Assembly: GCA_016872355.1 (NCBI GenBank)
Contig: VGZY01000028.1
Location: 1 to 32,211, forward strand
Direction of reading: 5' to 3'
From: SAR202 cluster bacterium
Lineage (GTDB): Bacteria > Chloroflexota > Dehalococcoidia > Lucifugimonadales > VGZY01
DNA length: 32,211 nt
Shown here: positions 1,173 to 25,617 of the stretch, piece after piece
Layout: the number at the start of each line of letters is the position of its first letter
How positions within the stretch are numbered: position 1 is the stretch's first letter
Position numbers and translations under genes: made by a program
Notes under the pieces: generated by a model
Seen by the model: only the letters and a program-made list of their open reading frames with translations
The model's database searches: none
What the model was told of the DNA's origin: nothing

Positions 1173-1493
1173 ATGAAGATCTACGTTGGCAATCTTTCAT
1201 TCTCTGAGACGGACGACTCGCTGAGGCAGACCTTCAGCCAGTTCGGCGAGGTAGTCTCTGCGAGGGTCGTGACCGATCGCGAGACCAACCGGTCGCGAGG
1301 GTTCGGCTTTGTGGAGATGTCGAACGACGCCGAGGCGAAGGCCGCGATCGCGGACCTGAACGGCAAGGAAATCAAGGGCCGGCAGCTGACGGTCAACGAG
1401 GCCAAGCCCCAGGAGCCCCGCACCGGCGGTGGCGGCGGCCGCGGGTTCGGCGGCGGCGGCGGCGGTTTTGGCGGCGGCGCCCCGCGCAGGTAG
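1173..1493 (+). CDS. Single-RRM glycine-rich RNA-binding protein
   Basis: This 106-residue protein is one RNA recognition motif followed by a glycine-rich tail. RNP2 is IYVGNLSF (residues 3-10) and RNP1 is RGFGFVEM (42-49), with the aromatic positions needed for RNA stacking present in both. Residues about 83-104 are almost entirely Gly with Phe and Arg, as in plant and cyanobacterial Rbp proteins. Family members bind single-stranded RNA and are often cold-induced or act in RNA localisation and turnover; the target here is unknown. The start is fixed by AGGAG seven bases upstream of ATG. It is monocistronic, with a strong terminator 30 bases after the stop. Confidence 0.95.
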   Translation: MKIYVGNLSFSETDDSLRQTFSQFGEVVSARVVTDRETNRSRGFGFVEMSNDAEAKAAIADLNGKEIKGRQLTVNEAKPQEPRTGGGGGRGFGGGGGGFGGGAPRR

Positions 1494-1573: not shown

Positions 1574-1978
1574 CTAGCCCAGGACGGACTTGAGGAAGTC
1601 CATAATCTCCTCTATGGAGAATGGCTTGCCCATGATCCTGTCTGCGCCAAGAGACCGAGCGCGGTCCAGGATACGTCCCTCGGCGGTGCCGCTGAGAACG
1701 ACCGTGGAAACTCCAGGGTACTCCTTGGCCTTGCGCAACACTTCCAGCCCGTCTTCGGGGCCAAGGTTCACGTCCAGGATGACAACAGGGGGCCGCGCGG
1801 CGTCCAGGGCCGCAATGGCGTCCGCCACGTTGGTGGCGGTGATCACTCGGTAGCCGCGACCGGAGATTACCCTGGACACAATCTTGAGCATGGCCGTGTT
1901 ATCGTCCACCACCAGGACGGGCCTATTCGCCTCGTCCGCCCTTTCGGGGGGCGGCAGGCGAAGGCGATTGAGAATCAT
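1574..1978 (-). CDS. Single-domain response regulator (CheY/Spo0F-like receiver)
   Basis: The product is 134 residues and consists of one receiver domain with no output domain. The acidic pocket is D25-D26 (VVDDN), the phosphoacceptor is D69 (VVILDVNLG), the switch Thr/Ser is in LSGT (96-98) and the conserved Lys is K118 (GKPF). The ATG at 1978 has GGAGG just upstream and lies inside the end of the kinase gene, which stops at 1923, giving a 56-base overlap and probable translational coupling. It is the likely phosphotransfer partner of that kinase. With no DNA-binding domain it must act through another protein, which is not visible here. Confidence 0.92.
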   Translation of the reverse strand: MILNRLRLPPPERADEANRPVLVVDDNTAMLKIVSRVISGRGYRVITATNVADAIAALDAARPPVVILDVNLGPEDGLEVLRKAKEYPGVSTVVLSGTAEGRILDRARSLGADRIMGKPFSIEEIMDFLKSVLG

Positions 1979-2711
1979 CACCCTCCAGGCCCGGCAAGGT
2001 GAATGTGAATGCTGCGCCCTTCCCCTCACCCGCGCTCTCCGCCCGTATCTTCCCGCCATGCGCCTCGATTATCCCCTTCGAGATCACCAGCCCCAGCCCG
2101 GTGCCTTCGACGCGCGTGTTGAGACGAGAAAACTTCCTGAAGAGCCTGTCCTGCATCTCCGGCGGTATACCCATGCCGTGGTCCGACACCTTGACCGCAA
2201 CGGCCCCGGCGCGGTACTCGACCTCAACGCGAATCTCTCCTTCCGGCGGAGAGAACTTGTTGGCGTTCGAAAGCAGGTTGGTCAGCACCTGCAATATCCG
2301 GCACCTGTCAGCGCTTACCAGAGGAAGGCTGCTGGGGCAAAGGAGCTCCAGCTTTCGCCGGTTGCCGGTCGAGCGGCGGAAGATGGCTATTGCCTCCTCC
2401 GCCGTCAGGCACAGGTCGAGCGGCTCGGACCTCACGGCCAGGTGGCCGGACTCTACGGCCGATATGTCCAGCAGGTTGTCCAGAAGCTCCTTCATCCGGG
2501 AGACCTGCTCGGAGACGACCTCCCGAAGCTCATCGGCATCGGCGACATCCAGCGGCTGCCCGGCGCGAAGGATGGTTTCCGCCGTGGCCTTGATGACCGC
2601 CAGGGGCGAACGGAGCTCGTGGCTCACCATACCTAGGAACTCGTGCCGCGAGCGCTCCATGTCTTCCAGGACTGTGATGTCCTGGACGGAAACGACCGCT
2701 CCGTCAATCAC
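1923..2711 (-). CDS. Sensor histidine kinase core, N-terminus apparently lost
   Basis: The frame from GTG 2711 encodes a dimerisation/phosphoacceptor domain (SHELRSP, His31) and an HATPase domain: N box NLLSNANKF (about 145-153), G1 DHGMGIP (177-183), F box RLFRKFS and G2 GTGLGL (203-208). All residues needed for ATP binding and autophosphorylation are visible. The first 20 residues (VVSVQDITVLEDMERSR) look like the last strand of a PAS domain, which normally sits upstream in such kinases. No ribosome-binding site precedes the GTG, and an in-frame TAG is at 2741-2739. The protein therefore has a catalytic core but no complete sensor. An internal start at MERSRHEF is the alternative. Confidence 0.8.
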   Translation of the reverse strand: MIDGAVVSVQDITVLEDMERSRHEFLGMVSHELRSPLAVIKATAETILRAGQPLDVADADELREVVSEQVSRMKELLDNLLDISAVESGHLAVRSEPLDLCLTAEEAIAIFRRSTGNRRKLELLCPSSLPLVSADRCRILQVLTNLLSNANKFSPPEGEIRVEVEYRAGAVAVKVSDHGMGIPPEMQDRLFRKFSRLNTRVEGTGLGLVISKGIIEAHGGKIRAESAGEGKGAAFTFTLPGLEGDDSQSPSPAAPRKGGRGE

Positions 2712-4019: not shown

Positions 4020-7000
4020 ATGCGCCAACTTACAATTCCAAACCTGGTCCGAAAAAGAATCGCCGACGACTGGAAGCTCCTCGTTGCAGTCTTCGCAGGG
4101 GTCCTGGTTGCCGTCACACTAGCCGCAGGCACACCGGTATACCTGACCGCGCTCGATCAACTCGCCTACCAGACCTCGATTAACAGGCTGGACAACGCCA
4201 ACGTTGAAGTGACGGGCGGGAAAGTTATCACGTCCGAGACTTCGCTGCGCGGGGCCGAGGGCGTGCTGGACGCCGCCGTCTCGGAGAACATTGAGGACGT
4301 TTACACAGGCCGAGAGGAGTTCTTCCGGACGGAGACGGGCCTCACTGGCACGCCAGCCAACCCGCTGCCCCCGGGCAACGGCAAGGGCATTGTTGTCGGC
4401 CGCGGATACGTACAGTCCCTGACAAACCTGGAGCAACACTCGCGGTTCCTGGCCGGGCAGATGTCCGGCGACGAGGTGCTGCAGGACGACTTCGGGTGGA
4501 CGATTGAGGCGGTTGTATACGCGGAGACCGCGGTCAAGTTCGGCCTCAGGGTCAACGACGAAGTCCGGTTCTCCCCTTCCCTCTCTTCCAACCAGACAAT
4601 CAAGGCGAAAATCACAGGCGTCTTCGAGCCTCTCTCCCCCACCCCACCCGTGTGGCAGGCCGGCGCCTCCCTCCTGAGTCCCCAGCCGTTGCCCGCGCCG
4701 ACCGAGATCTTCGTGCAGGTCGAGCCCGGGGAGCCGCCCATCACGGTCTTCGCGACGCAGCGGGTGATGGACCGGGTCTTCGAGGAGTGGGCGGTATTCA
4801 CGGCCGTCGGCGGCGAGCAGTACGTCCAGAGCAACCCCTATCTTGCAGGCACGCCTTCCCGGCCGCTGCCGGCAGCGACGGGCGAGGGAGTGTATGCCCT
4901 CGTCGGCCACCTGCACTACCTTTCCAACCTTGGCGACCACATCAGGCTGCGCGAAGGGCGGATGGCAACCGACAGGGTTGAGATGGACCCGAACGGCCCG
5001 TTCATCGAGACGGTGCTGTACCACACCGGAGCGGCCAGGCGCGAGCTCAAGCTGGGCGAGCAGGTGATATTCGCCTCCTCGCTGGGGGCCAACCGGTACA
5101 TCAAGGCAACGGTCGTCGGCATCATGGAGCCGGACGATGTAAACACGCCGTACTGGAGCCGGGCGAGGGCGTTCCTGGACCCTCCTCCGGCAAGCGACAA
5201 GCCGACGCTGGCGCAGGACGGCGACCGCTCGCCTTTACCCCTGTTCGTCACCCGGCACACGCTCTTTGAGTCCATATCGTCTGTCTACCCGGGCATGCTG
5301 GGACAGCCGACCTGGGTGCTGTACCTGGACAAGGACACGATGAAGGTGTGGCCGACCACTGAGGCGCGCGCTCGGCTGCGGGCGTTTGAGCAGGCGATGA
5401 TGGAGTCCGTGCCGGGCTCGCAGACCAACGTTGCACTGGTTCGGTCGCTCACGCGCGAGGGCGAGCGACAGAGCCTCTTCGCCCGCATCCCAATGCTGTT
5501 GCTTCTCACCGTCACGGTCTTCACCGTGCTCTTCCTGCTCAGCGTAGTGATCTCGTACCTGGTTGAGAGCCGGCAGAGCGGCACCGCCTTGCTGCGCTCC
5601 CGCGGGGTAAGCGGAAGACAGCTCCTCGTCCTGTACCTGGCGGAGGGGCTTCTTATTACTGCGCCCTCGATGGTCCTGGCGCCGGTTCTCGCCATTGCCG
5701 CGGTGGCGCTGGCGGGGTATCTACCGTACTTCAGCGATATGACGGGTGGCGGAATTCTGCCTATCGTCCTGGAGCCAGAGCCCTTCGTCGTGAGCTTCGG
5801 GTTGGGTATGGCGTGCCTGGCCACTTTCGTGTTGATGGGCCTGTCCGGCACGCGCGGCGGCCTCCTTGCGCACAAGCTGCGCCAGGCGAGGCCCCTGTCG
5901 CTCCCCCTGTTCCAGCGGTACTACCTGGACGTGGCGCTGATCGTGATCGGCGGCCTCATCTTCTGGGAGCTGCGCGAGCGCGGACAGTTCGCGTCAGGCG
6001 GGCTGTTCACGGATATCAAGGTCAACGAGCCGCTGCTCCTTGCGCCGGTGCTGTTCCTGCTTGTGGTCGCGCTGCTATTCATGCGCTTCTTCCCCATGAT
6101 CGTCCGGTTCGTGGCCGGGGAGTCGACGTCGATAGTCCACCTTGTCGCCGTTGCCTCCGCAGTAGCGCTGGCAGTCGGCATCACTGTGGAGGAGCGAAAT
6201 GCCGGGGATGTTACGGCGTGGCTATGGCCGGTGTTGTGCCTGGCAGCATTCCTTGCGGCCTATGGGGCCACGCAGAACGCGGAGAAGCCGGTGGCAAGGC
6301 TGCTGGGAATCGCCTCGCAGGCGGCGCTCCTGGCGCTGGTGGCGGTGATGAGGCGACCGCTTGACCTGACCGGCCCCATGGTGTTCGCTTTCGGCGGATT
6401 GACGGCCGTAGCGCCGCTGCAGCTTTTCTTCATGGCGCAGCGCGAGCTCATGAAGGTGGCGCCGGTATTCCTCTCCATGGGTCTCTGGAGAATGGCGCGC
6501 AACCCCATGCAGTACACGTGGTTCATCCTCATACTGGTGCTTGCGACCGGACTGGGGATCCTCTCCACAACCGTCGGGGGCACGCTCGAGCGCAGCCGCG
6601 AAGACCGTGTGAGGTACGAGACACCGTCCGACCTCTATGCGAAATTCAGCGAATTCGGCGTCATTGGAGGCATCCCAGCGGTGCGAGAGAACTTCGACAG
6701 CACTCCCGGGATCAACAAGTACTCTCTGGCCCTGAGGCAGCCCGTGGACATCGGCACGACGCGCGCGGACCTCCTCGCCGTGGATACGAGGACATTCGCG
6801 GACACCACCTGGTACCGGAGCGACTTCGCGGACCGCAGCCTGAAGGACATGATGGAGGACCTGCACCCCTCGGAGGGCTTCAGGCCGATACCTATACCTG
6901 TGAACGCCAGCAGCACGATCGGCCTGTGGGTGAAGCCGATTGACTACCTGCCGTTCGTCACGGTCATGGCGCAGGTGGCCGACAGATACGGAGCTATGAC

Positions 7001-8183
7001 CTCGGTTTTCATCGGCCGGCTCAGCTCCGGGGAGTGGCACGAGCTGTCCACCCAGATACCCGAGCACATTGCCCAGCCCAGGACGCTCGTCTCCATACAG
7101 GTCTACGAAGAGGGCGCCTCCGGCCAGTCCGGCGAGGGCGGCGTGCCTGTGACGCCGGGCACGGTGCTCTTCGACGACGTATTCGTAACGACCGAGGATG
7201 GCCGGCGGATCGTGCTGGAGGACTTCGAAGGGCCGTTCAAGTGGACACCGATCTACACGTGGGCCGACCTCACGGAAAGGGTAACGGCCGAGACAGCGGA
7301 CGTGCACAGCGGGCAGGGCGCGCTTCGCTTCTCGTTCACCAACCTCACAGCCAGAGGGCTGCGCGGCTTCTACGTGAAGCCGGCGGACTTCCCCATGCCG
7401 GTACTTGTATCCTCCCGGCTGGCGGAGGCGAACGGCTACAAAGTGGGCGACACCGTCACGGCGCGCATCAACCTTAGGTGGATGCCCGTAGTCATCAAGG
7501 ACATTGTGGACTACTTCCCCACAGTCGCGCCGACAAGCGCCGGATTCATGGTTGCCGACATTAACGCCGTGATGGGCCACATGAACAACCTGATGGACTT
7601 TTACAACGAGAGGCCGCACGAGGCTTTCATTGAAGCCGACCCGACGATGCATGAGTCCATCACATCGGCTATCAACGAATTCACAACACGGACGGGCGGC
7701 GTGTCGGACGCTACGGCGGAGCTGGAATCGTTGCGGAGCGACCCGCTGACCATCGCCGGATGGGAGCCGCTGGCGCTGCTGGCGCCCCTCATAGGGCTTC
7801 TGGCCGCCGCGGTTGGATATGTGACCTACCTTCTCCTTTTCGCCAAGCGGAGCGGAAAAGAGATGGGCTCACTGCGGTTCGTGGGACTTTCACGGGGACA
7901 GCTTGCGAGCCTCCTGGGGTTTGAGCACCTGGCAGTCGCGGCGATCGGCCTGGGGATTGGCACCTGGGCTGGAATGCAGATGAGCCGGATGATGGTATCG
8001 CCGCTGGCCGTCACTGAGAACGGCGACCCGTTGCTGCCGCCGTTTATCCTCACGACAGACATGGCGGCGCTATCGCTCACCTATGTGGCGCTGGCGGCGC
8101 TATTCCTGGCGGCGGTGTTCCTGCTGAATCGTGGCATCGGCCGCCTGAGCCTGATATCGATAGCCAGAGGCGGGGAAGTGTAG
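4020..8183 (+). CDS. Giant FtsX-like ABC transporter permease (1387 aa)
   Basis: An inner-membrane permease of the FtsX/MacB type. After TM1 (residues about 20-45) there is a large extracytoplasmic region holding two related modules: VVGRGYVQSLTNLEQHSRF near 125 and ALVGHLHYLSNLGDHIRL near 290. A first FtsX membrane block starts near 490 and is followed by several more helices to about 760. Another helix (about 831-853) precedes a second extracytoplasmic domain carrying a beta-rich insert near 1050 (VLFDDVFVTTEDGRRIVLED). The final FtsX block (about 1250-1387) includes FAKRSGKEMGSLRFVGLSRG. No nucleotide-binding subunit is encoded nearby. ATG 4020 is chosen because the protein proper begins MRQLTIPNLVRKR; no clear ribosome-binding site precedes it. 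It probably handles lipids, lipoproteins or peptides by analogy with MacB/LolE. Confidence 0.85.
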   Translation: MRQLTIPNLVRKRIADDWKLLVAVFAGVLVAVTLAAGTPVYLTALDQLAYQTSINRLDNANVEVTGGKVITSETSLRGAEGVLDAAVSENIEDVYTGREEFFRTETGLTGTPANPLPPGNGKGIVVGRGYVQSLTNLEQHSRFLAGQMSGDEVLQDDFGWTIEAVVYAETAVKFGLRVNDEVRFSPSLSSNQTIKAKITGVFEPLSPTPPVWQAGASLLSPQPLPAPTEIFVQVEPGEPPITVFATQRVMDRVFEEWAVFTAVGGEQYVQSNPYLAGTPSRPLPAATGEGVYALVGHLHYLSNLGDHIRLREGRMATDRVEMDPNGPFIETVLYHTGAARRELKLGEQVIFASSLGANRYIKATVVGIMEPDDVNTPYWSRARAFLDPPPASDKPTLAQDGDRSPLPLFVTRHTLFESISSVYPGMLGQPTWVLYLDKDTMKVWPTTEARARLRAFEQAMMESVPGSQTNVALVRSLTREGERQSLFARIPMLLLLTVTVFTVLFLLSVVISYLVESRQSGTALLRSRGVSGRQLLVLYLAEGLLITAPSMVLAPVLAIAAVALAGYLPYFSDMTGGGILPIVLEPEPFVVSFGLGMACLATFVLMGLSGTRGGLLAHKLRQARPLSLPLFQRYYLDVALIVIGGLIFWELRERGQFASGGLFTDIKVNEPLLLAPVLFLLVVALLFMRFFPMIVRFVAGESTSIVHLVAVASAVALAVGITVEERNAGDVTAWLWPVLCLAAFLAAYGATQNAEKPVARLLGIASQAALLALVAVMRRPLDLTGPMVFAFGGLTAVAPLQLFFMAQRELMKVAPVFLSMGLWRMARNPMQYTWFILILVLATGLGILSTTVGGTLERSREDRVRYETPSDLYAKFSEFGVIGGIPAVRENFDSTPGINKYSLALRQPVDIGTTRADLLAVDTRTFADTTWYRSDFADRSLKDMMEDLHPSEGFRPIPIPVNASSTIGLWVKPIDYLPFVTVMAQVADRYGAMTSVFIGRLSSGEWHELSTQIPEHIAQPRTLVSIQVYEEGASGQSGEGGVPVTPGTVLFDDVFVTTEDGRRIVLEDFEGPFKWTPIYTWADLTERVTAETADVHSGQGALRFSFTNLTARGLRGFYVKPADFPMPVLVSSRLAEANGYKVGDTVTARINLRWMPVVIKDIVDYFPTVAPTSAGFMVADINAVMGHMNNLMDFYNERPHEAFIEADPTMHESITSAINEFTTRTGGVSDATAELESLRSDPLTIAGWEPLALLAPLIGLLAAAVGYVTYLLLFAKRSGKEMGSLRFVGLSRGQLASLLGFEHLAVAAIGLGIGTWAGMQMSRMMVSPLAVTENGDPLLPPFILTTDMAALSLTYVALAALFLAAVFLLNRGIGRLSLISIARGGEV

Positions 8184-8184
8184 G

Positions 8185-8270
8185 AAATTACGAATTACAA
8201 ATTACAAGTTACAAGTTACAAGTCAGAAAGGCAGGCCGCTTAACTGTTTTCAATTCGTAATTCGTAATTT
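8185..8270. repeat. AT-rich heptamer tandem and inverted repeat between the two permease genes
   Basis: The left part contains successive 7-base units of the form AATTACG/AATTACA/AGTTACA (about 8186-8220). The right part carries the complementary GTAATTC units. A perfect 14-bp inverted repeat pairs 8185-8198 with 8257-8270. The sequence is far AT-richer than its surroundings. It may fold as a long hairpin in the message linking the two permease genes. Confidence 0.8.
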
Positions 8271-8288
8271 GTTATTCTCAGAGTGCTT

Positions 8289-11200
8289 ATGAAGAGATTT
8301 CAGCACAACTTAAGGTTGGCGGTTAACCGGCTCATCTCGGCCTGGCAGCTTGTCGTCAAGCGCGGCGTGGCGCACTGGCGGATGCTCATGTACGTGATGG
8401 TGGGCGTTCTGTTGGCATCCGCGATACTCTCAGGGACGGTTATCTACTTCGACGCTCTGAAGGACCTGGCGCTCAAGAATGCCCTGGGCAGGTACGACGA
8501 CAGAAGTCTCGACATCCTGTTCACCAACCGCCAGCTCCCTACCAGCCCCGAGCTCTACGCGGAAACGTCCGGGACGCTTGAAGCCGAGGCAGGATACCGC
8601 ATCGGCTGGATGGCCCGCTCGACCTATCGCGCGGGAAAGTCGCCGACGATGTTCCTTGGGACGCCGGGCCGTGAAGCGGAGGCAGGGAGCGACAATGCCC
8701 GGACCTTCGTGGCCTTCCTGCCGGAGCTCATGGACAACGTGTCGCTTCCGGCGGGCAGCGTGCGGCCGCTGGACGAGGGCGTGGGGGCGCCGGGAGGGCC
8801 GGTGGAGGTGGAGGCGCTGGTGCCGGCGGACGCGGCGGCGCAGTTCGGCGTGAAGGTGGGCGACCGGTTTGTGGCGAAGCCCACGTGGTCGGAGCGCATC
8901 GTGAACCCGGACGGCTCGATTGGGACGAGCGACGCGGTGCTGTACGTCACCGTGAGCGGGATGTTCGAGCGGGGTGACAACGCGGAGTTCAACTACCTGG
9001 AGCAGCAGACGCTGCAGGCTTCGATAGGGTCCGGGTTTCGCTCTCTCCCGTTCTATGTGACCCAGAACGCCTTCTTTAACGTGATAACGCCGGCGTTCAA
9101 GAACATGCAGGTAACCTACCACTGGCTTTCGGACATCGACCAGTCGAAAGTTGACGCGACGAACTCCAGCCTTACCGTTCTACATATCGATACCATGGGC
9201 CGCAACCTGGCGGGAAACCTGCTCGGGTTCTCGTACTCGACCGACCTGGACAACGCGCTGCGGGACTACGACCAGAGGATCTTCTTCAGCCGACTGCCCA
9301 TGTTCGTTGTGCTGGCGATGATAGCGCTGGTGGTGCTGTTCTACGTTGCGACGATGTCCGCGCTTGTAGTCGAGACGCAGCGCAGCGAAGTGGCGCTGAT
9401 GCGGAGCCGCGGCTCCAACTCCGCCCAGATACACACTGTGTTCGGGCTAGAGGGCGCGACAATTGCCCTGGTGGCGATCGTAATCGCCCCGCCGTTCGCG
9501 GCGCTGACGATTGGCCTGCTGGGTTATACGCCGGTGTTCAGCGACCTTACCGGAGGGTCGCAGCTCGAGGTGGGCATATCGCGAACGGCGTACCTGCTGA
9601 GCGCGCTCGGCGGGCTGCTGAGCTTCGCGGCGCTCATGGTCCCTGCCTGGCAGGCCGCGCGGATCGGCCTTGTACAGCAGCGCCAGTTCTCGGCGCGCCC
9701 GGCATCGAAGCCGTTCTACCAGCGGTACTACATAGATGTCCTGCTGCTGGTGGTAAGCGTGCTGCTGTTCCGTCAGCTTACGGAGCAGGGCTCCATTGTG
9801 GCGCGGGACCAGCTCGGACAGGAGACGGTTGACCAGCTCCTGCTGGCGGTGCCCGGGCTAGTGCTCATCGCGACGGCGATGATACTGCTGCGCCTGTTCC
9901 CGCTGGCGATGAACCTGGTAAGCAAGGTAACGTCTGCATGGCTGCCGACCGGGCTGGTGCTGAGTGTGTGGCAGATGTCGCGCGAGCCGACGCACTACGC
10001 GAGGCTTTCACTGCTGCTGATTCTGACGGCAGGGCTGGGCATATTCGCTGCTAGCTTTGGGGTGACGCTGGACCGCAATGTGACGGAGAGGATACTCTTC
10101 CTGACCGGCAGCGAGATACGCATGGACAGCGTGCGGCCGGCTTCGGGGACGGGGCCGGCGGCCGAGCCGGCGGAGGCCTTCAGCCAGGCGCCGGGGGTGA
10201 CGGCCGCGAGCGCTGTCACGCGGACGCCGGGACAGGATGTGACGTTCGACGGCGGGACGAACTTCGAGCTCCTTGCGGTGGACACGGACACCTTCGTCGA
10301 CGTGGTGTGGTTCAGGGACGATTTCGCGCCGCGACCACTGCCGGAGCTGCTGCGTTCCCTGAAGGTTCCCAATGCGACGGCGATAACCGGACTCCGGCTA
10401 CCGGACGATGCCACTTCGATACTTCTACGATTGAAGGCAGACAGGCTCCAGCCCACTGTCTCCGTGAACGTCAGGCTCCAGAACGGCCACGGCCAGTTCA
10501 CAGACGTGGAGCTTGGCCGGCTCAACGATGCGGAGCCCTTCACAATGGAGAAGGCGCTCAACGAAGGCGCGATACAGCAGTTCGCGGCGACGCGGCCGCT
10601 GCACGTCGTTTCCGTGTACGTACAGGAGGCGACTCTCGGGCAGATCAGGCCGGGATCCGTCCTCATAGACAGCCTGGGCGTGAAGCGCTCCAACGGGCAG
10701 ACGGTGGTCCTGGACGAGTTCGACGACGCGGCGCGGTGGAACCTGCTGCAAACGACCAGCGAGGCCCTTGGCGATTCGTCCAGGCCGGCAGGTGAAGTGC
10801 TGGCGAATGCCCCGGCAGACGGGACGGTCTTTTTCTGGACAACCGGCGCGCCGATGACGCCGCGCGGCATCTACTTCGGTGAGAAGCCCTCTCCCCTGTC
10901 CGTGCTGGCAAGCAAGGCGTTCGCGGAGGCGTCCGGCCACGGCGATGGCGATGAGTTCACGATCTCCATATCAGGCGCCAGGGTGCCGGCGAGGATCGTA
11001 GGCACCCTGGACCTGTTTCCCACTACGGGGGGGCCGGAGCGGCGCTACGTTGTTGCTGACCGTGCCGCGGTAAAACGGTACGTGACTATCGGCTCGGCGA
11101 CGGGCGACATCTCGCAAATGGAGGTGTGGGTGGACACGCCGGCAACGGGCGAGGATCGCGAGGCCCTGATCGCGGCGCTGTTCCAGGCCCCGGGCTACAC

Positions 11201-11699
11201 GGCGTCTCAGGTCGTTGACCGTGCAGAGCGGCTGGCGGCGAACGACGCGTCGGTAGACCCGCTGGTAGAGGCCGGCTGGAGCGCGCTGCTCGTGATCGCG
11301 TTCGGGACCGTGCTTGTCCTGAGCTGCCTGGGCTTCCTGGTGCACGCATATGTCTCATTCCGGAACAGGCGCGTCCACTTTGGCCTTATGCGGACCGTGG
11401 GCCTCTCGATGGGGCAGCTAATGACGGCCATCTGGGTGGAACAGGTGCTTGTGGTCGCAGTGGGGCTGGCGCTGGGGACGTGGATGGGCGGGCGGCTGGG
11501 GGCAACGATCATGCCGTTCCTGGGCCACGACGACTGGGGAGGGCGCGTTGTGCCGCCGTTCGCCGTTGAAGTGAACTGGCAGGCCCTGCTTGTCACCTAT
11601 GGTGTGATGATGGTGTTCTTCGTCGTCGTCAGCCTGGGGCTGATGGTGCTCATTCGCCAGATATCGCTCCAGAAGGCGCTCAGGCTGGGAGAGGGTTAA
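8289..11699 (+). CDS. Giant FtsX-like ABC transporter permease, paralogue of the preceding gene (1136 aa)
   Basis: The architecture matches the upstream gene: TM1 (about 34-57), one extracytoplasmic module, an FtsX block from about 335 (LPMFVVLAMIALVVLFYVAT), further helices, a helix near 571-595 (LILTAGLGIFAASFGVTLDR), a second extracytoplasmic domain and a final FtsX block (about 998-1120). Shared signatures include FYQRYYIDVLLL here versus FQRYYLDVALI upstream, and a beta-rich insert near 788 (GSVLIDSLGVKRSNGQ). Only one copy of the N-terminal module is present, which accounts for the shorter length. The pair probably form a heterodimeric permease needing an ATPase encoded elsewhere. ATG 8289 is used; GTG 8283 is an alternative, and neither has a good ribosome-binding site. 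Confidence 0.85.
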   Translation: MKRFQHNLRLAVNRLISAWQLVVKRGVAHWRMLMYVMVGVLLASAILSGTVIYFDALKDLALKNALGRYDDRSLDILFTNRQLPTSPELYAETSGTLEAEAGYRIGWMARSTYRAGKSPTMFLGTPGREAEAGSDNARTFVAFLPELMDNVSLPAGSVRPLDEGVGAPGGPVEVEALVPADAAAQFGVKVGDRFVAKPTWSERIVNPDGSIGTSDAVLYVTVSGMFERGDNAEFNYLEQQTLQASIGSGFRSLPFYVTQNAFFNVITPAFKNMQVTYHWLSDIDQSKVDATNSSLTVLHIDTMGRNLAGNLLGFSYSTDLDNALRDYDQRIFFSRLPMFVVLAMIALVVLFYVATMSALVVETQRSEVALMRSRGSNSAQIHTVFGLEGATIALVAIVIAPPFAALTIGLLGYTPVFSDLTGGSQLEVGISRTAYLLSALGGLLSFAALMVPAWQAARIGLVQQRQFSARPASKPFYQRYYIDVLLLVVSVLLFRQLTEQGSIVARDQLGQETVDQLLLAVPGLVLIATAMILLRLFPLAMNLVSKVTSAWLPTGLVLSVWQMSREPTHYARLSLLLILTAGLGIFAASFGVTLDRNVTERILFLTGSEIRMDSVRPASGTGPAAEPAEAFSQAPGVTAASAVTRTPGQDVTFDGGTNFELLAVDTDTFVDVVWFRDDFAPRPLPELLRSLKVPNATAITGLRLPDDATSILLRLKADRLQPTVSVNVRLQNGHGQFTDVELGRLNDAEPFTMEKALNEGAIQQFAATRPLHVVSVYVQEATLGQIRPGSVLIDSLGVKRSNGQTVVLDEFDDAARWNLLQTTSEALGDSSRPAGEVLANAPADGTVFFWTTGAPMTPRGIYFGEKPSPLSVLASKAFAEASGHGDGDEFTISISGARVPARIVGTLDLFPTTGGPERRYVVADRAAVKRYVTIGSATGDISQMEVWVDTPATGEDREALIAALFQAPGYTASQVVDRAERLAANDASVDPLVEAGWSALLVIAFGTVLVLSCLGFLVHAYVSFRNRRVHFGLMRTVGLSMGQLMTAIWVEQVLVVAVGLALGTWMGGRLGATIMPFLGHDDWGGRVVPPFAVEVNWQALLVTYGVMMVFFVVVSLGLMVLIRQISLQKALRLGEG

Positions 11700-19344: not shown

Positions 19345-20409
19345 TTGTCCAACACCGGCCCAACAGTAATACGGCCCCTGTACTGGCGCGATGGAAAGGT
19401 GATGCTGCTCGACCAGACGCACCTGCCTTCAAGCGAGGTGTGGCTGGAGCTTGCCGACTACCGCGCAGTTGTCGAGGCGATCAAGCACATGCGGGTCCGA
19501 GGCGCGCCCGCGATCGGCATTGCCGGCGCATACGCCGTGGTGCTCGCCGCCGGTGAGCTCACGGACTACACCCCAGACGAGTTCCAGGTGCGCCTCAAGG
19601 CGGCCGCGGATGTGATCGCAAACGCGAGGCCGACCGGCGCCAACCTCGCCTGGGCGGTCCGCCGCATGATGGCGCACGCCCACGTGGTCACCTCACCCAG
19701 TTCTGCGGAGAAGCAGCTCCTGGCTGAAGCCCTGCGGATCCATGAAGAGGATGAGAAGGCTAACCGCCGCATGGGCAAGCTTGGCGCGGACCTGCTCCCA
19801 CAGGGCGCCGGCGTGCTCACACACTGCAACACCGGAGCGCTCGCCACCGGGGGCCATGGCACAGCGCTTGGCGTTATCCGCAGCGCGTGGGAAGCCGGCA
19901 AGCTGGGGCACGTGTACGCCACGGAGACGCGGCCCCTCCTCCAGGGCGCGCGCCTGACGGCCTGGGAGCTTATGCACGACCATATCCCGGCGACGCTGTT
20001 GCCGGACTCCGCCGCCGGCCAGCTCATGCGGCAGCGGAAGGTGCAGGCCGTGATCGTAGGCGCGGACCGAATAGCGGCCAACGGCGACACCGCAAACAAG
20101 ATAGGCACCTATAGCCTGGCCGTGCTGGCGAAGGAGCACGGAATACCTCTCTATGTGGCGGCACCCTTCAGCACAATCGACCTCACCCTCTCGTCCGGAG
20201 AAGGGATAGTCATAGAGGACCGCTCGGCCCGCGAGGTAACGCACTTCGGCGGGTACAAGTCCGCGCCGGACGGCATAGCCGTGATGAACCCGGCGTTCGA
20301 CGTGACTCCGAACGACTATATCGCGGCAATAATCACTGAGCTTGGCGTGGCCAGGAAGCCGTACACCACCGGCCTGGCGAATCTCAAAAAGGCGCATACA
20401 CATGGCTGA
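19345..20409 (+). CDS. mtnA: S-methyl-5-thioribose-1-phosphate isomerase
   Basis: This 354-residue isomerase converts 5-methylthioribose 1-phosphate to the ribulose form, the second step of methylthioadenosine salvage. It has RGAPAIG (52-58), the catalytic Cys161 in LTHCNTG and the catalytic Asp241 in GADRIAANGDTANKIGT. These align with Cys160 and Asp240 of the Bacillus enzyme and distinguish it from eIF2B regulatory subunits. A TAG lies immediately before TTG 19345, so this TTG is the only start that keeps the conserved VIRPLYWRDGKVMLLDQ beginning; its ribosome-binding site is weak. The end overlaps mtnP by 8 bases. None of the later salvage genes (mtnB, C, D) is in the window. Confidence 0.95.
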   Translation: MSNTGPTVIRPLYWRDGKVMLLDQTHLPSSEVWLELADYRAVVEAIKHMRVRGAPAIGIAGAYAVVLAAGELTDYTPDEFQVRLKAAADVIANARPTGANLAWAVRRMMAHAHVVTSPSSAEKQLLAEALRIHEEDEKANRRMGKLGADLLPQGAGVLTHCNTGALATGGHGTALGVIRSAWEAGKLGHVYATETRPLLQGARLTAWELMHDHIPATLLPDSAAGQLMRQRKVQAVIVGADRIAANGDTANKIGTYSLAVLAKEHGIPLYVAAPFSTIDLTLSSGEGIVIEDRSAREVTHFGGYKSAPDGIAVMNPAFDVTPNDYIAAIITELGVARKPYTTGLANLKKAHTHG

Positions 20410-21265
20410 AGTCAAGCTGGCGTTCATTGGCGGCTCCGGCCTCTACAATATGGAGGCGCTCACGGACAAAGAGGAGCGCGCCATAAAGACCCCGTTCGGT
20501 GAGCCGAGCGACAAGGTTGTCATCGGGACCCTGTCGGGTCATCGCGTGGCGTTCATCCCCCGCCACGGCCGCGGCCACCGGTACTCCCCTTCGGAGATAC
20601 CGGCGCGGGCAAATATCTACGCCCTCAAGACCCTGGGCGTGGAAAGGCTGGTCTCCATCAGCGCCGTCGGCAGCCTGAAGGAAGAGGTCCGGCCGCTGGA
20701 CATGCTGGTGCCGGACCAGTTAATCGACCGGACCCGCGGCTTCCGTCCGAGCTCGTTCTTCGAAAAGGGCATCGTGGCCCATGTCGGGTTCGCTGACCCC
20801 TTCTGCCCTCAGCTACGGGCGTCCCTGCACGCCACGTCCGAGAAGCACGTTGCGACCCACAACAGCGGCACATTCGTCGTCATGGAGGGGCCCCAGTTCT
20901 CAACCCGCGCGGAGTCCGAGCTCTATCGCTCGTGGGGCGCGAGTATTATCGGCATGACCGCGCTGCCCGAGGCGAAGCTGGCCCGCGAGGCGGAAATCTG
21001 TTACGCCACCCTTGCGCTGGTCACCGACTACGATTGCTGGCGCCAGGGCGAGGAGGTAGTTTCCGTCGAGCTGGTCGTCGCCAACCTTATGAAGAATGTC
21101 GCCAACGCGCAGAAGATCGTCCAGGACCTGGTTGGCGCTCTCCCGGAGAAGCGAGACTGTACCTGCGGCGCCGCGCTCGAGAACGCGATCATCACCGGGC
21201 GAGAGCACCTGAGCAAGGAGACCCGGACGCGGCTCTCGGCGATTATTGGGAAGTACGTGAAGTGA
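20402..21265 (+). CDS. mtnP: 5'-methylthioadenosine phosphorylase
   Basis: This 287-residue enzyme of the PNP/MTAP family cleaves methylthioadenosine with phosphate to adenine and methylthioribose 1-phosphate, the substrate of the overlapping upstream gene product MtnA. GGSGLY (10-15) binds phosphate. VVMEGPQFSTRAES (about 158-171) contains the family signature, and ALVTDYDCW (about 203-211) is the base-recognition segment, where Asp rather than Asn favours 6-aminopurines. The 8-base overlap with mtnA indicates coupling. Related inosine-cleaving phosphorylases exist in archaea and bacteria, but the pairing with mtnA supports methylthioadenosine as substrate. Confidence 0.93.
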   Translation: MAEVKLAFIGGSGLYNMEALTDKEERAIKTPFGEPSDKVVIGTLSGHRVAFIPRHGRGHRYSPSEIPARANIYALKTLGVERLVSISAVGSLKEEVRPLDMLVPDQLIDRTRGFRPSSFFEKGIVAHVGFADPFCPQLRASLHATSEKHVATHNSGTFVVMEGPQFSTRAESELYRSWGASIIGMTALPEAKLAREAEICYATLALVTDYDCWRQGEEVVSVELVVANLMKNVANAQKIVQDLVGALPEKRDCTCGAALENAIITGREHLSKETRTRLSAIIGKYVK

Positions 21266-21269
21266 CAGC

Positions 21270-21317
21270 CGGCAGTCAGCAGTGAGTAGTCGGCAGTCGG
21301 CCGAAGAAACGGCAGTA
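21270..21317. repeat. GGCAGT short repeats after mtnP
   Basis: GGCAGTC occurs at 21271-21277 and 21292-21298, with related CAGCAGT and GAGTAGT units between and another GGCAGT at 21311-21316. It is a degenerate short tandem in the 128-base gap between mtnP and the rhodanese gene, with no hairpin strong enough to call a terminator. Confidence 0.5.
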
Positions 21318-21393
21318 AGACAAAAGGCCGGGGAACGAGTATCATATACAACCGGACTTCGGATTGGCCCAGGCAGGGCCGGAGGTTAAGATA

Positions 21394-21747
21394 ATGCCCA
21401 GAAGAGAGCCAGGAGAGCCGTATTACAGGCTCACAGTGGATGAGGCCGGTAAGATGCACGGCAAGCCGGACACGATGTTTATCGACGTCCGCAAGCCGGA
21501 CGAATACCGGTCCGGACACGTCAAGAACGCAACGCTCATCCCCGTGGATGACGTGCTCGCAAAGGTAGACGACCTCCCCAGGGACAAGAACCTGGTGTTC
21601 ATCTGCGCGGTGGGCGCAAGGAGCGGGCTCGCCTGCGAGATGGCGGCAGCCATGGGGCTGGACCAGGAGAAGCTCTTCAGCGTGGACGGCGGAACGCCCG
21701 TCTGGATACAGAAGGGTCTGCCGACGAGCCGGGGCAACGAGCCGTAA
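21394..21747 (+). CDS. Single-domain rhodanese-like sulfurtransferase
   Basis: This 117-residue protein is one rhodanese domain. DVRKPDEYRSGHV (31-43) is the conserved first motif, and the active-site loop is CAVGARS (71-77) with nucleophilic Cys71, followed by MGL and GGTPVWIQKGLP near the C-terminus. The CxxGxR loop of six residues is typical of sulfurtransferases rather than Cdc25-type phosphatases. ATG 21394 has GGAGG nine bases upstream. The substrate is unknown. Its place between methylthioadenosine salvage and SAM-cycle genes suggests a role in sulfur transfer around methionine or cysteine, but this is inference from position only. Confidence 0.9.
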   Translation: MPRREPGEPYYRLTVDEAGKMHGKPDTMFIDVRKPDEYRSGHVKNATLIPVDDVLAKVDDLPRDKNLVFICAVGARSGLACEMAAAMGLDQEKLFSVDGGTPVWIQKGLPTSRGNEP

Positions 21748-21761
21748 GAGAGAAAATCAAG

Positions 21762-21792
21762 CGCAGAGTGCGCAGAGTTTCAGGACGCAGAG
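21762..21792. repeat. CGCAGAG heptamer repeats
   Basis: CGCAGAG occurs at 21762-21768, 21771-21777 and 21786-21792. The same heptamer with TTT after it recurs at 25648-25657 after metK, so it is a dispersed intergenic motif of this genome. Confidence 0.6.
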
Positions 21793-21811
21793 AAACACAA
21801 GGAGAAAGTCA

Positions 21812-21898
21812 ATGAACAAGTCGAAGCGAAGGGCCTGGGAGAAGCATCGCAAGACCCAGAAGAGGATTAAGGCCAAGCGCAAGGCCGAGAAGGCGTAG
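21812..21898 (+). CDS. Very basic 28-residue microprotein
   Basis: ATG 21812 to TAG 21898 encodes a 28-residue peptide with nine Lys and five Arg, starting MNKSKRRAWEKHRKTQKR. AAGGAG lies about nine bases upstream, and the stop is two bases before the ATG of the PfkB kinase gene, so it is placed like a real, coupled cistron. Composition and length resemble the small additional ribosomal proteins of bacteria (THX or bS22 type, AURKAIP1-like basic helices), and ribosome or RNA binding is the best guess. The codons are GC-rich like the neighbours. I cannot assign a family with certainty. Confidence 0.65.
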   Translation: MNKSKRRAWEKHRKTQKRIKAKRKAEKA

Positions 21899-21900
21899 GC

Positions 21901-24248
<2,348 letters not shown>

Positions 24249-24294
24249 GCCTTGATTTATTCCGGCAAACAGGTAAATCTCAATAGTGGTTTTG

Positions 24295-24313
24295 CGGCCC
24301 TCCGGGAGGGCCG
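24295..24313 (+). promoter_or_regulatory. metK: GC hairpin in the metK leader
   Basis: CGGCCCTC (24295-24302) pairs with GAGGGCCG (24306-24313) around CGG within the 139-base gap before metK. No T run follows, and I do not recognise a SAM-I, SAM-II or other SAM riboswitch. It could be a processing or attenuation structure. Confidence 0.35.
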
Positions 24314-24387
24314 GAGCAAGTCTGAACGCGAGCGCGTGAGGCGGCGGCGCCGGTCATGCGCGCGTACCCAGGGAGGGTCCTTTTCAT

Positions 24388-25617
24388 ATGCCGTCTACGT
24401 TCTCCACTTCCCCTAAATACCTGTACACGTCCGAGTCCGTGACAGAGGGGCACCCCGACAAGCTTTGCGACCAGATTTCCGACTCCGTGCTCGATGCGCT
24501 CATCGCCATCGACCCCATGTCCCGCGTTGCCTGCGAGTCGGCGACAACCACCGGCCTCGTTGCCGTGATCGGCGAGATCACGACGAACGCCAGGGTGGAC
24601 ATGCAGGCGATCGTCCGCAACGCCATCAAGGAGGCCGGCTACACGGACCCCGCGTACGGCTTCGACTACCAGTCGTGCGGGGTGATGGTATCCATTGGCC
24701 AGCAGTCGCAGGACATTTCCGGCGGAGTGACAAACTCCCTCGAGACCCGCGGCAACAAGGACGGCAAGTACGACGAGGTTGCGGCCATCGGCGCCGGAGA
24801 TCAGGGCATGATGGTCGGATTTGCCTGCAATGAGACGCCGGTGCTCATGCCGATGTCCATCTACCTGGCGCACGGCATCTGCCGCCGTCTGGCAGAGATG
24901 CGCAAGAACAAGACCCTCAAGTACCTGCGGCCGGACGGCAAAGCGCAGGTTACGGTTGAGTACTCCATGGGCGTGCCAAAGCGCGTCCACACAGTTGTAG
25001 TCAGCACGCAGCACAGCCCGGACGTCGACCAGGCTACCATCCGCAAAGACGTCATCGAGCACGTTGCAAAGCACGTCATCCCAGCCAATCTGCTGGACAA
25101 GGACACCGTCTTCCACATCAACCCGTCCGGCCGCTTCGTCACCGGCGGCCCCGTCGGCGATGCGGGCCTGACCGGCCGCAAGATCATCGTGGACACGTAC
25201 GGCGGAGTTGCCCGCCACGGCGGCGGCGCGTTCTCCGGCAAGGACCCCACAAAGGTGGACCGCTCGGCCGCTTACGCCGCGCGCTACGTGGCGAAGAACA
25301 TCGTCGCGGCCGGCCTGGCGGACAGGCTGGAGATCCAGATCTCCTATGCCATCGGCGTCGCAAAGCCGGTGTCCGTAGCCGTCGAGACGTTCGGCATGGG
25401 CAAAGTGCCGGACAGCACAATCGTGGACCTGGTCAACAAGAACTTCGACCTGCGCCCGGGCGCGATCATCCGCGACCTCGGCCTGCGCCGGCCGATCTAC
25501 AAGCAGACGGCCACCTACGGCCACTTCGGCCGCAACGACCTGGACCTGCCCTGGGAGCGCACGGACAAGGCAGCGCTGCTCAAAGCAGAGGCGTTCGCAA
25601 AGCCGGTGAAGGCGTAG
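24388..25617 (+). CDS. metK: S-adenosylmethionine synthetase
   Basis: This 409-residue enzyme makes SAM from methionine and ATP. Signatures are [14 protein letters not shown] (21-34, ATP and metal binding), [12 protein letters not shown] (about 136-147) and [16 protein letters not shown] (about 277-292, phosphate binding). All three domains of the usual tetrameric bacterial enzyme are present and the length is normal. ATG 24388 has GGAGG about 11 bases upstream. It is the last gene of the SAM-cycle cluster and is followed by a terminator-like hairpin at 25674. Nothing unusual is seen in the protein. Confidence 0.97.

Follow-up and report, generated by a model that had tools for sequence, protein, structure and literature searches.

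The 32,211-nt contig VGZY01000028.1 of a SAR202 cluster bacterium (hereafter the window, meaning this whole stretch) encodes two giant paralogous FtsX-like permeases without an ATPase gene beside them. These proteins are designated as P1 and P2, and judging from their predicted structures they are YbbP-type Type VII ABC permeases from a Chloroflexota branch of the MacB/LolCDE/YbbAP machines. The second extracytoplasmic domain of each contains a beta-rich insert, which sequence profiles indicate to be most likely a circularly permuted FlaA-like jelly roll. Two ATPase genes, nbdA and nbdB, are present on another contig (C37) of the same genome (G000). It is probable that one shared nbdA/nbdB pair drives several permeases in trans, the window pair included, with the sharing, the ligand and the mechanism all being proposed here. 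A fuller version, in which a single-copy pair of an AbrB-tailed nbdA and nbdB is common to up to nine interchangeable YbbP-type permeases, each with a permuted FlaA-like head, is put forward more tentatively.

Membrane plan and domain structure of P1 and P2

Both genes are intact open reading frames (ORFs), and the ATG start of P1 at position 4020 is backed by alignment to relatives. Two Pfam FtsX stretches were recognized in each protein, all above the cut-off. Hydropathy analysis revealed 10 hydrophobic segments in P2 and 15 windows in P1; because two of the latter overlap, P1 is taken to have 14 transmembrane helices (TMs). P2 shows a 10-TM plan, in which TM1 and TM7 are each followed by an extracytoplasmic domain. 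P1 shows the same plan with four additional helices after TM6, which are helical in the AlphaFold2 (AF2) model as well. A coupling helix is present in each FtsX block of both proteins, as judged by motif, position and conservation only. Escherichia coli YbbP is described as a pseudo-dimer with this 10-TM plan (PMC12646458); its coupling helices lie between TM2 and TM3 and between TM8 and TM9, and there are two ATPase subunits to each permease.

A module occurs in two tandem copies in the first extracytoplasmic domain of P1. This duplication was undetected by self-BLASTP, and a shuffled Smith-Waterman test was used instead; the score was 223, far above those of 300 shuffles (mean 30, standard deviation 4.8, maximum 49). 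The duplicated module is also clear in the P1-type proteins of loci L059, L069 and L074, and was not seen in four other P1-type proteins tested (L060, L050, L110 and L065). L074:11050-15558 is an operon-encoded P1-type permease of 1503 aa with the duplicated module. It lies outside the clade of the window P1, and thus the module may have been duplicated on more than one occasion.

The AF2 models were built from alignments of 38 (P2) and 36 (P1) sequences, and their mean pLDDT was 86.4 for P2 and 83.6 for P1 residues 46-1245. YbbP is the Foldseek rank 1 for both models. The P2 model is similar to YbbP with Z 21.7 and 21.4; at Z 21.7, 674 residues are aligned over the whole length with a root-mean-square deviation (rmsd) of 10.9, which we would attribute to the domain positions in the model. 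The similarity of P2 to BceB is indicated with Z 21.1 (603 residues aligned, rmsd 6.8). The periplasmic domains of LolE, YknZ and MacB can be aligned with the core of the second extracytoplasmic domain, 160-192 residues being matched across about 360-390; for LolE, 192 residues are aligned across P2 597-983 and 189 across P1-model 812-1189. Between both halves of this core, the models include 11 (P2) and 12 (P1) strand segments. The core aligns in residues spread on either side of these strands, and thus the beta-rich insert is outside the standard MacB/LolE core.

These results agree with most of what the first-pass annotation, made from the letters of the window, had claimed about the architecture: two FtsX blocks in both proteins, a duplicated N-terminal module in P1, and, in both, a second extracytoplasmic domain that carries a beta-rich insert. 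The insert is also separate from the standard MacB periplasmic core, since the LolE alignment flanks it in both models; the opposite outcome had been named in advance as the one that would overturn the claim. The annotation had further stated that both proteins far exceed ordinary MacB/LolE permeases and carry two FtsX blocks. The blocks are real, but two blocks per chain are not unusual in themselves, since E. coli YbbP shares this plan.

The insert as a probable permuted FlaA-like jelly roll

The profiles for the insert were built from 10 or 24 of the 36 P1-type inserts and from 0 of the 38 P2-type inserts. In each of four profile searches against PDB (native or swapped halves, 10 or 24 sequences), FlaA/flagellar sheath proteins occupy the top ten rows, and only they show E-values below 0.1. 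The 10-sequence profile in the native order found FlaA with a best E of 1.1e-4, and after the halves were swapped, the top FlaA was aligned as one piece (profile 4-122 to chain 47-181, E 4.1e-5). The 24-sequence profile gave E 8.3e-6 with two reversed pieces in the native order and E 2.9e-6 with one piece in the swapped order. All native-order FlaA alignments shown (3 and 2, respectively) consist of two pieces in the reversed order, the second segment of the insert corresponding to the N-terminal part of FlaA and the first segment to its C-terminal half; the canonical order of the halves was not seen in them. The FlaA1 structure aligns with the P1 model for 98 residues (2.4 A, 16% identity, Z 7.2). 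Only its C-terminal part is aligned, to the first segment of the insert, as is expected for swapped halves. Two structures titled as circular permutations, 1cpn and 2xhh, are also included in the structural list for the P1 model at Z 6.8. From the order of these pieces, we infer a circular permutation as an evolutionary event.

Several observations weigh against the permutation. The swap improves the E-value in 7 of 10 FlaA rows and worsens it in 3 of 10 in both pairs of searches; with such mixed E-values, the support comes from the order of the pieces, not from the totals. The swapped order unites the top FlaA only, while the other rows shown align by one half or in two collinear pieces. The N-terminal piece of FlaA by itself scores just 2-7 bits. 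Finally, PLAT-bearing proteins align the insert in its native order at Z 6.5-7.1.

The last observation leads to an alternative, in which the insert is a PLAT/C2-like beta-sandwich of ordinary strand order with a membrane- or lipid-binding function, instead of a permuted FlaA-like or carbohydrate-binding-module-like jelly roll. Chains of lipoxygenase and pancreatic lipase, whose aligned regions we take to be PLAT domains, are aligned sequentially in P1-model 918-1076 across 101-111 residues with an rmsd of about 3.2-3.6 A. This alternative is plausible but less likely: no PLAT protein shares the E-values of the FlaA proteins in the PDB profile searches, the rmsd of FlaA1 is lower with the partial alignment described above, and 1cpn and 2xhh, the structures titled as permutations, are listed as well. 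When 10 inserts were scanned against Pfam, no PLAT family reached E 1 or better. The VIA-align list for P1 includes no insert match above Z 7.2, and absence from this list excludes nothing.

The Pfam family FlaA (PF04620) matched 2 of 10 inserts with 19 bits, against the cut-off of 25. Single-sequence Pfam searches with native and half-swapped inserts were tried as a way to distinguish the two orders and did not discriminate between them; each gave weak FlaA matches to the same half in 2 of 10 sequences, together with one (native) or two (swapped) other weak matches.

The insert had originally been compared with a carbohydrate-binding jelly roll. The jelly roll is supported, but its nearest sequence relatives in PDB are FlaA proteins, relative to which the halves are swapped. 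Among rows named as carbohydrate-active proteins, the best is 2xom, with E 0.15 for the 24-sequence swapped profile. In the available part of a paper on the Leptospira sheath (PMC7065911), the words jelly, lectin and carbohydrate were not found. The jelly roll is likely to be a ligand- or partner-binding part, for which sugar binding is putative. The related proposal of a transporter or mechanotransmission complex with a built-in ligand-binding domain is consistent with the Type VII, mechanotransmission-like architecture of the models, and the binding of a substrate or sugar is putative.

In the genome of the window, the permuted insert profile has 8 matches at E 0.01 or better, all within permeases; three P1-type copies are matched as two separate segments and two P2-type copies as one. 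No canonical-order copy of the domain was found there with this profile at the same threshold. In other genomes of the class and phylum, the domain was found with an insert profile in 9 of 10 giant permeases (E 1.3e-10 or better for a set of 10 sequences). These 10 permeases were picked through a search with P2 617-854, covering the core and part of the insert, which matched 34 of 301 phylum genomes; the 9 of 10 thus speaks to the age of the domain, not to its frequency.

Absence of an ATPase at the window and the nbdA-nbdB pair

The claim that the nucleotide-binding gene is missing holds for the locus, but not for the genome. The Pfam scan of 20 other window ORFs revealed no such gene. The genome-wide search for PF00005 gave 55 matches, none of them on the window contig, and tblastn of the window with nbdA and nbdB found no remnant (best E 1.4). 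On C37, a paralogous permease pair is directly adjoined by nbdA and nbdB, and the gene order is the usual one in relatives: P1-type, P2-type, nbdA and nbdB. A cognate ATPase in the same operon, which we read as the LolD type, is thus absent for the window pair and present for its C37 paralogues. The Walker A, signature, Walker B and H-loop motifs are retained in both C37 ATPases, as judged by eye.

The nbdA proteins (C37, L050:5905-6795 and relatives) have a MazE/AbrB-like C-terminal tail (PF04014, E 0.0018, below the cut-off). The pattern D..GR.Q.P is seen in 35 of the 36 nbdA tails printed and is missing in L079. The tail possibly functions in dimerisation or regulation.

More distant Chloroflexota loci from other classes (L126, L128 and L129) each encode one giant permease and both ATPases. 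This layout and the 2:1 stoichiometry of ATPase to YbbP suggest that one permease per ATPase pair is the working unit, in which case a P1-P2 heterodimer is not required. In G046, the ATPase pair is found without a permease in the 3.4 kb to the contig edge. Among the other ATPase-less loci, 19 of 20 have no nbdA/nbdB-like match in the fetched DNA (10-19 kb, some reaching contig edges). At the other one, L113, a LolD-like gene of 43% identity lies beside a 1157-aa ORF at a distance of about 6 kb.

Copy numbers of the ATPase and permease genes

Among 147 genomes of the order, nbdA was found in 89, exactly one each (threshold E 1e-75 or better; best 16 candidates per genome scored). The permeases, counted with a profile of the helix preceding the second domain, were found in 87, with 1 to 9 matches each. 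Both are present in 86 genomes and neither in 57; three genomes have nbdA only (G038, G411 and G433) and one has permeases only (G405). Three or more permease matches were observed in 24 genomes, of which 23 have exactly one nbdA. In an earlier genome set, one nbdA at 55% identity or more was found in 20 of 20 genomes (next match at most 48%). For nbdB, 18 of 18 genomes have one orthologue at 60% identity or more (next at most 46%). Locus mapping of eight genomes with extra copies revealed 5, 5, 4, 9, 3, 5, 4 and 6 permeases for G000, G002, G005, G010, G032, G036, G042 and G046, respectively, in agreement with the profile counts. G000 also has a P1-like fragment of 400 aa (C68:9868-11070, L120), whose match includes an in-frame TGA; it is probably a decayed permease copy.

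Phylogenetic trees were constructed from permeases of 900 aa or more and 500 bits or more (63 rows). The window P1 clusters with the ATPase-less L110, L069 and L059 from three other families (SH-aLRT 97, in a quick tree of moderate trust), and the window P2 clusters with L059 only (93, not starred). The state of having nbdA nearby changes five times per tree, while well-supported branches force just three changes for P1 and two for P2. The window pair is best explained as an older duplicate that has no ATPase of its own.

A proposed shared ATPase and alternative readings

Each chain is a YbbP-like pseudo-dimer, in which two FtsX blocks of four TMs are combined with a pair of extracytoplasmic domains, linker helices and, in P1, the four extra helices; each permease is thereby expected to be able to dock one ATPase pair alone. 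The usual operon encodes the ATPase pair alongside the P1-type and P2-type permeases. In the proposed mechanism, the window pair would be powered in trans by the single nbdA-nbdB pair of C37. ATP-driven closing of the ATPases would shift the extracytoplasmic domains by mechanotransmission, and the permuted jelly roll of the second domain would bind a substrate or partner, such as an envelope lipid, glycan or protein.

An ATP-independent role of the ATPase-less permeases, as passive sensors, scaffolds, ligand sinks, or modulators of the complete transporter, is rather improbable. No ATPase is encoded locally, two-component genes 1.3-2.4 kb upstream of the window permeases recall Bce-type sensing, and kinase/regulator matches were found in 5 of 25 loci without nbdA versus 2 of 35 with nbdA. 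However, this difference is small, the two-component genes do not directly adjoin the permeases, and the ATPase-less copies keep the motifs and an above-average conservation in both coupling helices. The conservation of coupling helices 1 and 2 is 0.46 and 0.49 in the ATPase-less P1 copies, versus 0.38 for the whole protein, and 0.58 and 0.63 in the P2 copies, versus 0.47 (L122, L077 and L073 excluded).

Another reading is that the window pair is driven in trans by a different ATPase, such as one that belongs to another FtsX system of G000. ABC ATPase genes adjoin FtsX genes on contigs C5, C18 and C51 of G000, and three are related to nbdA at E below 1e-50. It is very unlikely that they are the partners, because these ATPases have FtsX neighbours of their own, whereas nbdA and nbdB share an operon with the closest permease paralogues and tend to be present in the genomes of the order that have the permease family.

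Some points count against the sharing of nbdA and nbdB. Those PF00005 genes on C5, C18 and C51 might serve instead. In G405 (83% complete, 610 contigs), no nbdA reaches the threshold although there are 7 permease matches. The mapping covers 8 of the 24 multi-copy genomes, and matches in the other 16 may include complete systems of their own. The coupling helices of ATPase-less copies are less conserved than those of operon members (P1, 0.46 versus 0.58 for helix 1 and 0.49 versus 0.53 for helix 2; P2, 0.58 versus 0.66 and 0.63 versus 0.64), and the drop for helix 1 slightly exceeds that of the whole protein.

Feature coordinates and neighbouring genes

Table 1. Coordinates of the permeases, their parts and the small cysteine protein
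Feature	Location	Strand	Basis
P1, giant two-block FtsX permease, 1387 aa, predicted 14 TM (10 YbbP-like + 4 extra)	window 4020..8183	+	
P1 first extracytoplasmic domain, module copy 1, residues 97-250	window 4308..4769	+	Smith-Waterman
P1 first extracytoplasmic domain, module copy 2, residues 264-415	window 4809..5264	+	Smith-Waterman
P1 coupling helix 1, residues 516-535	window 5565..5624	+	position and homology
P1 extra hydrophobic helices (four) following TM6, residues about 704-813, not present in P2	window 6129..6458	+	hydropathy and AF2 model
P1 insert, first segment, residues 957-1061, matches C-terminal half of FlaA	window 6888..7202	+	
P1 insert, second segment, residues 1062-1123, matches N-terminal part of FlaA	window 7203..7388	+	
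P1 coupling helix 2, residues 1276-1295	window 7845..7904	+	position and homology
P2, paralogous two-block FtsX permease, 1138 aa, predicted 10 TM, YbbP-like over whole length	window 8283..11699	+	
P2 coupling helix 1, residues 364-383	window 9372..9431	+	position and homology
P2 beta-rich insert, residues 704-866, place and motif order as in P1	window 10392..10880	+	
P2 coupling helix 2, residues 1027-1046	window 11361..11420	+	position and homology
Small cysteine protein	L050:4706-5026, L060:2332-2715, L063:13712-14056, L064:14868-15233, L068:15942-16301, L117:6346-6711		

The flanks of the permease genes are unrelated to them: a methyltransferase gene upstream and a biotin carboxylase gene downstream, both on the opposite strand. 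Window 1574-2711 (-), upstream of the permeases, includes overlapping ORFs for a HisKA-HATPase protein and a single-domain response-regulator-like protein. Two-component genes were considered as permease partners and rejected, as their occurrences across loci are too sparse. A small RRM-type RNA-binding protein is encoded at window 1173-1493 (+). Window 19345-25617 (+) encodes an IF-2B-family protein, a nucleoside phosphorylase, a PfkB kinase, an S-adenosylhomocysteine hydrolase and an S-adenosylmethionine synthetase (SAM synthetase). We read the IF-2B-family protein as MtnA-like, and this cluster looks like a methionine/SAM salvage block.

No recurrent partner gene was recognized near the loci. 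Families found in 4 or more loci were rejected as partners, being by eye general metabolism or spurious ORFs; the widest is SDR-like, in 13 loci. The only candidate to stand out was a protein of about 110 aa (106-127 aa) with conserved cysteines, encoded near the ATPase genes in six loci, all with nbdA (Table 1).

A genome scan by two peptide patterns revealed 48 loci, all labelled as Chloroflexota/Chloroflexi, Dehalococcoidia or SAR202 metagenome-assembled genomes. In the open-access literature, nothing was found joining an FtsX-like permease with a jelly roll and an ABC transporter, SAR202 with FtsX, or any four of LolD, AbrB, FtsX, permease and Chloroflexi.

Implications and comparison with known systems

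The usual view of Type VII ABC machines is that ATPase and permease form dedicated sets. If permeases do multiply beside single-copy ATPase genes, the ATPase pair would be a shareable engine, as proposed for MceG, and the loss of one ATPase gene pair should disable several transporters together. The permuted jelly roll would be an attached binding head, and would offer a handle on what the mostly uncultured SAR202/Dehalococcoidia move or sense at the envelope.

Regarding the insert, FlaA (PF04620) is the best sequence match and a partial structural match. It differs in the order of the halves, which is reversed in the insert, and in its context, as FlaA is a flagellar sheath protein outside any transporter. 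Regarding the ATPase, MceG is described as one ATPase for Mce1 and Mce4, transporters from separate operons (PMC9947336). MceG is similar to the proposed role of nbdA/nbdB in that a single ATPase is common to separately encoded transporters. The permeases are of an unrelated type (lipid importers), and the sharing of MceG is experimentally supported, whereas that of nbdA/nbdB is inferred.

Regarding the permeases, LolCDE and MacB have a core of the extracytoplasmic domains like that of P1 and P2. In LolC/E and MacB, however, each chain has a single four-TM block and is not known to carry an insert of this kind, which is consistent with the structural alignments here. YbbP of YbbAP-TesA is similar to P1 and P2 in its 10 TMs, two FtsX blocks and two extracytoplasmic domains forming a one-chain pseudo-dimer. 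P1 and P2 differ from it in their giant chains, the beta-rich insert and the four extra helices of P1, and their operon type encodes two different ATPases, nbdA and nbdB, neither of which is beside the window pair.

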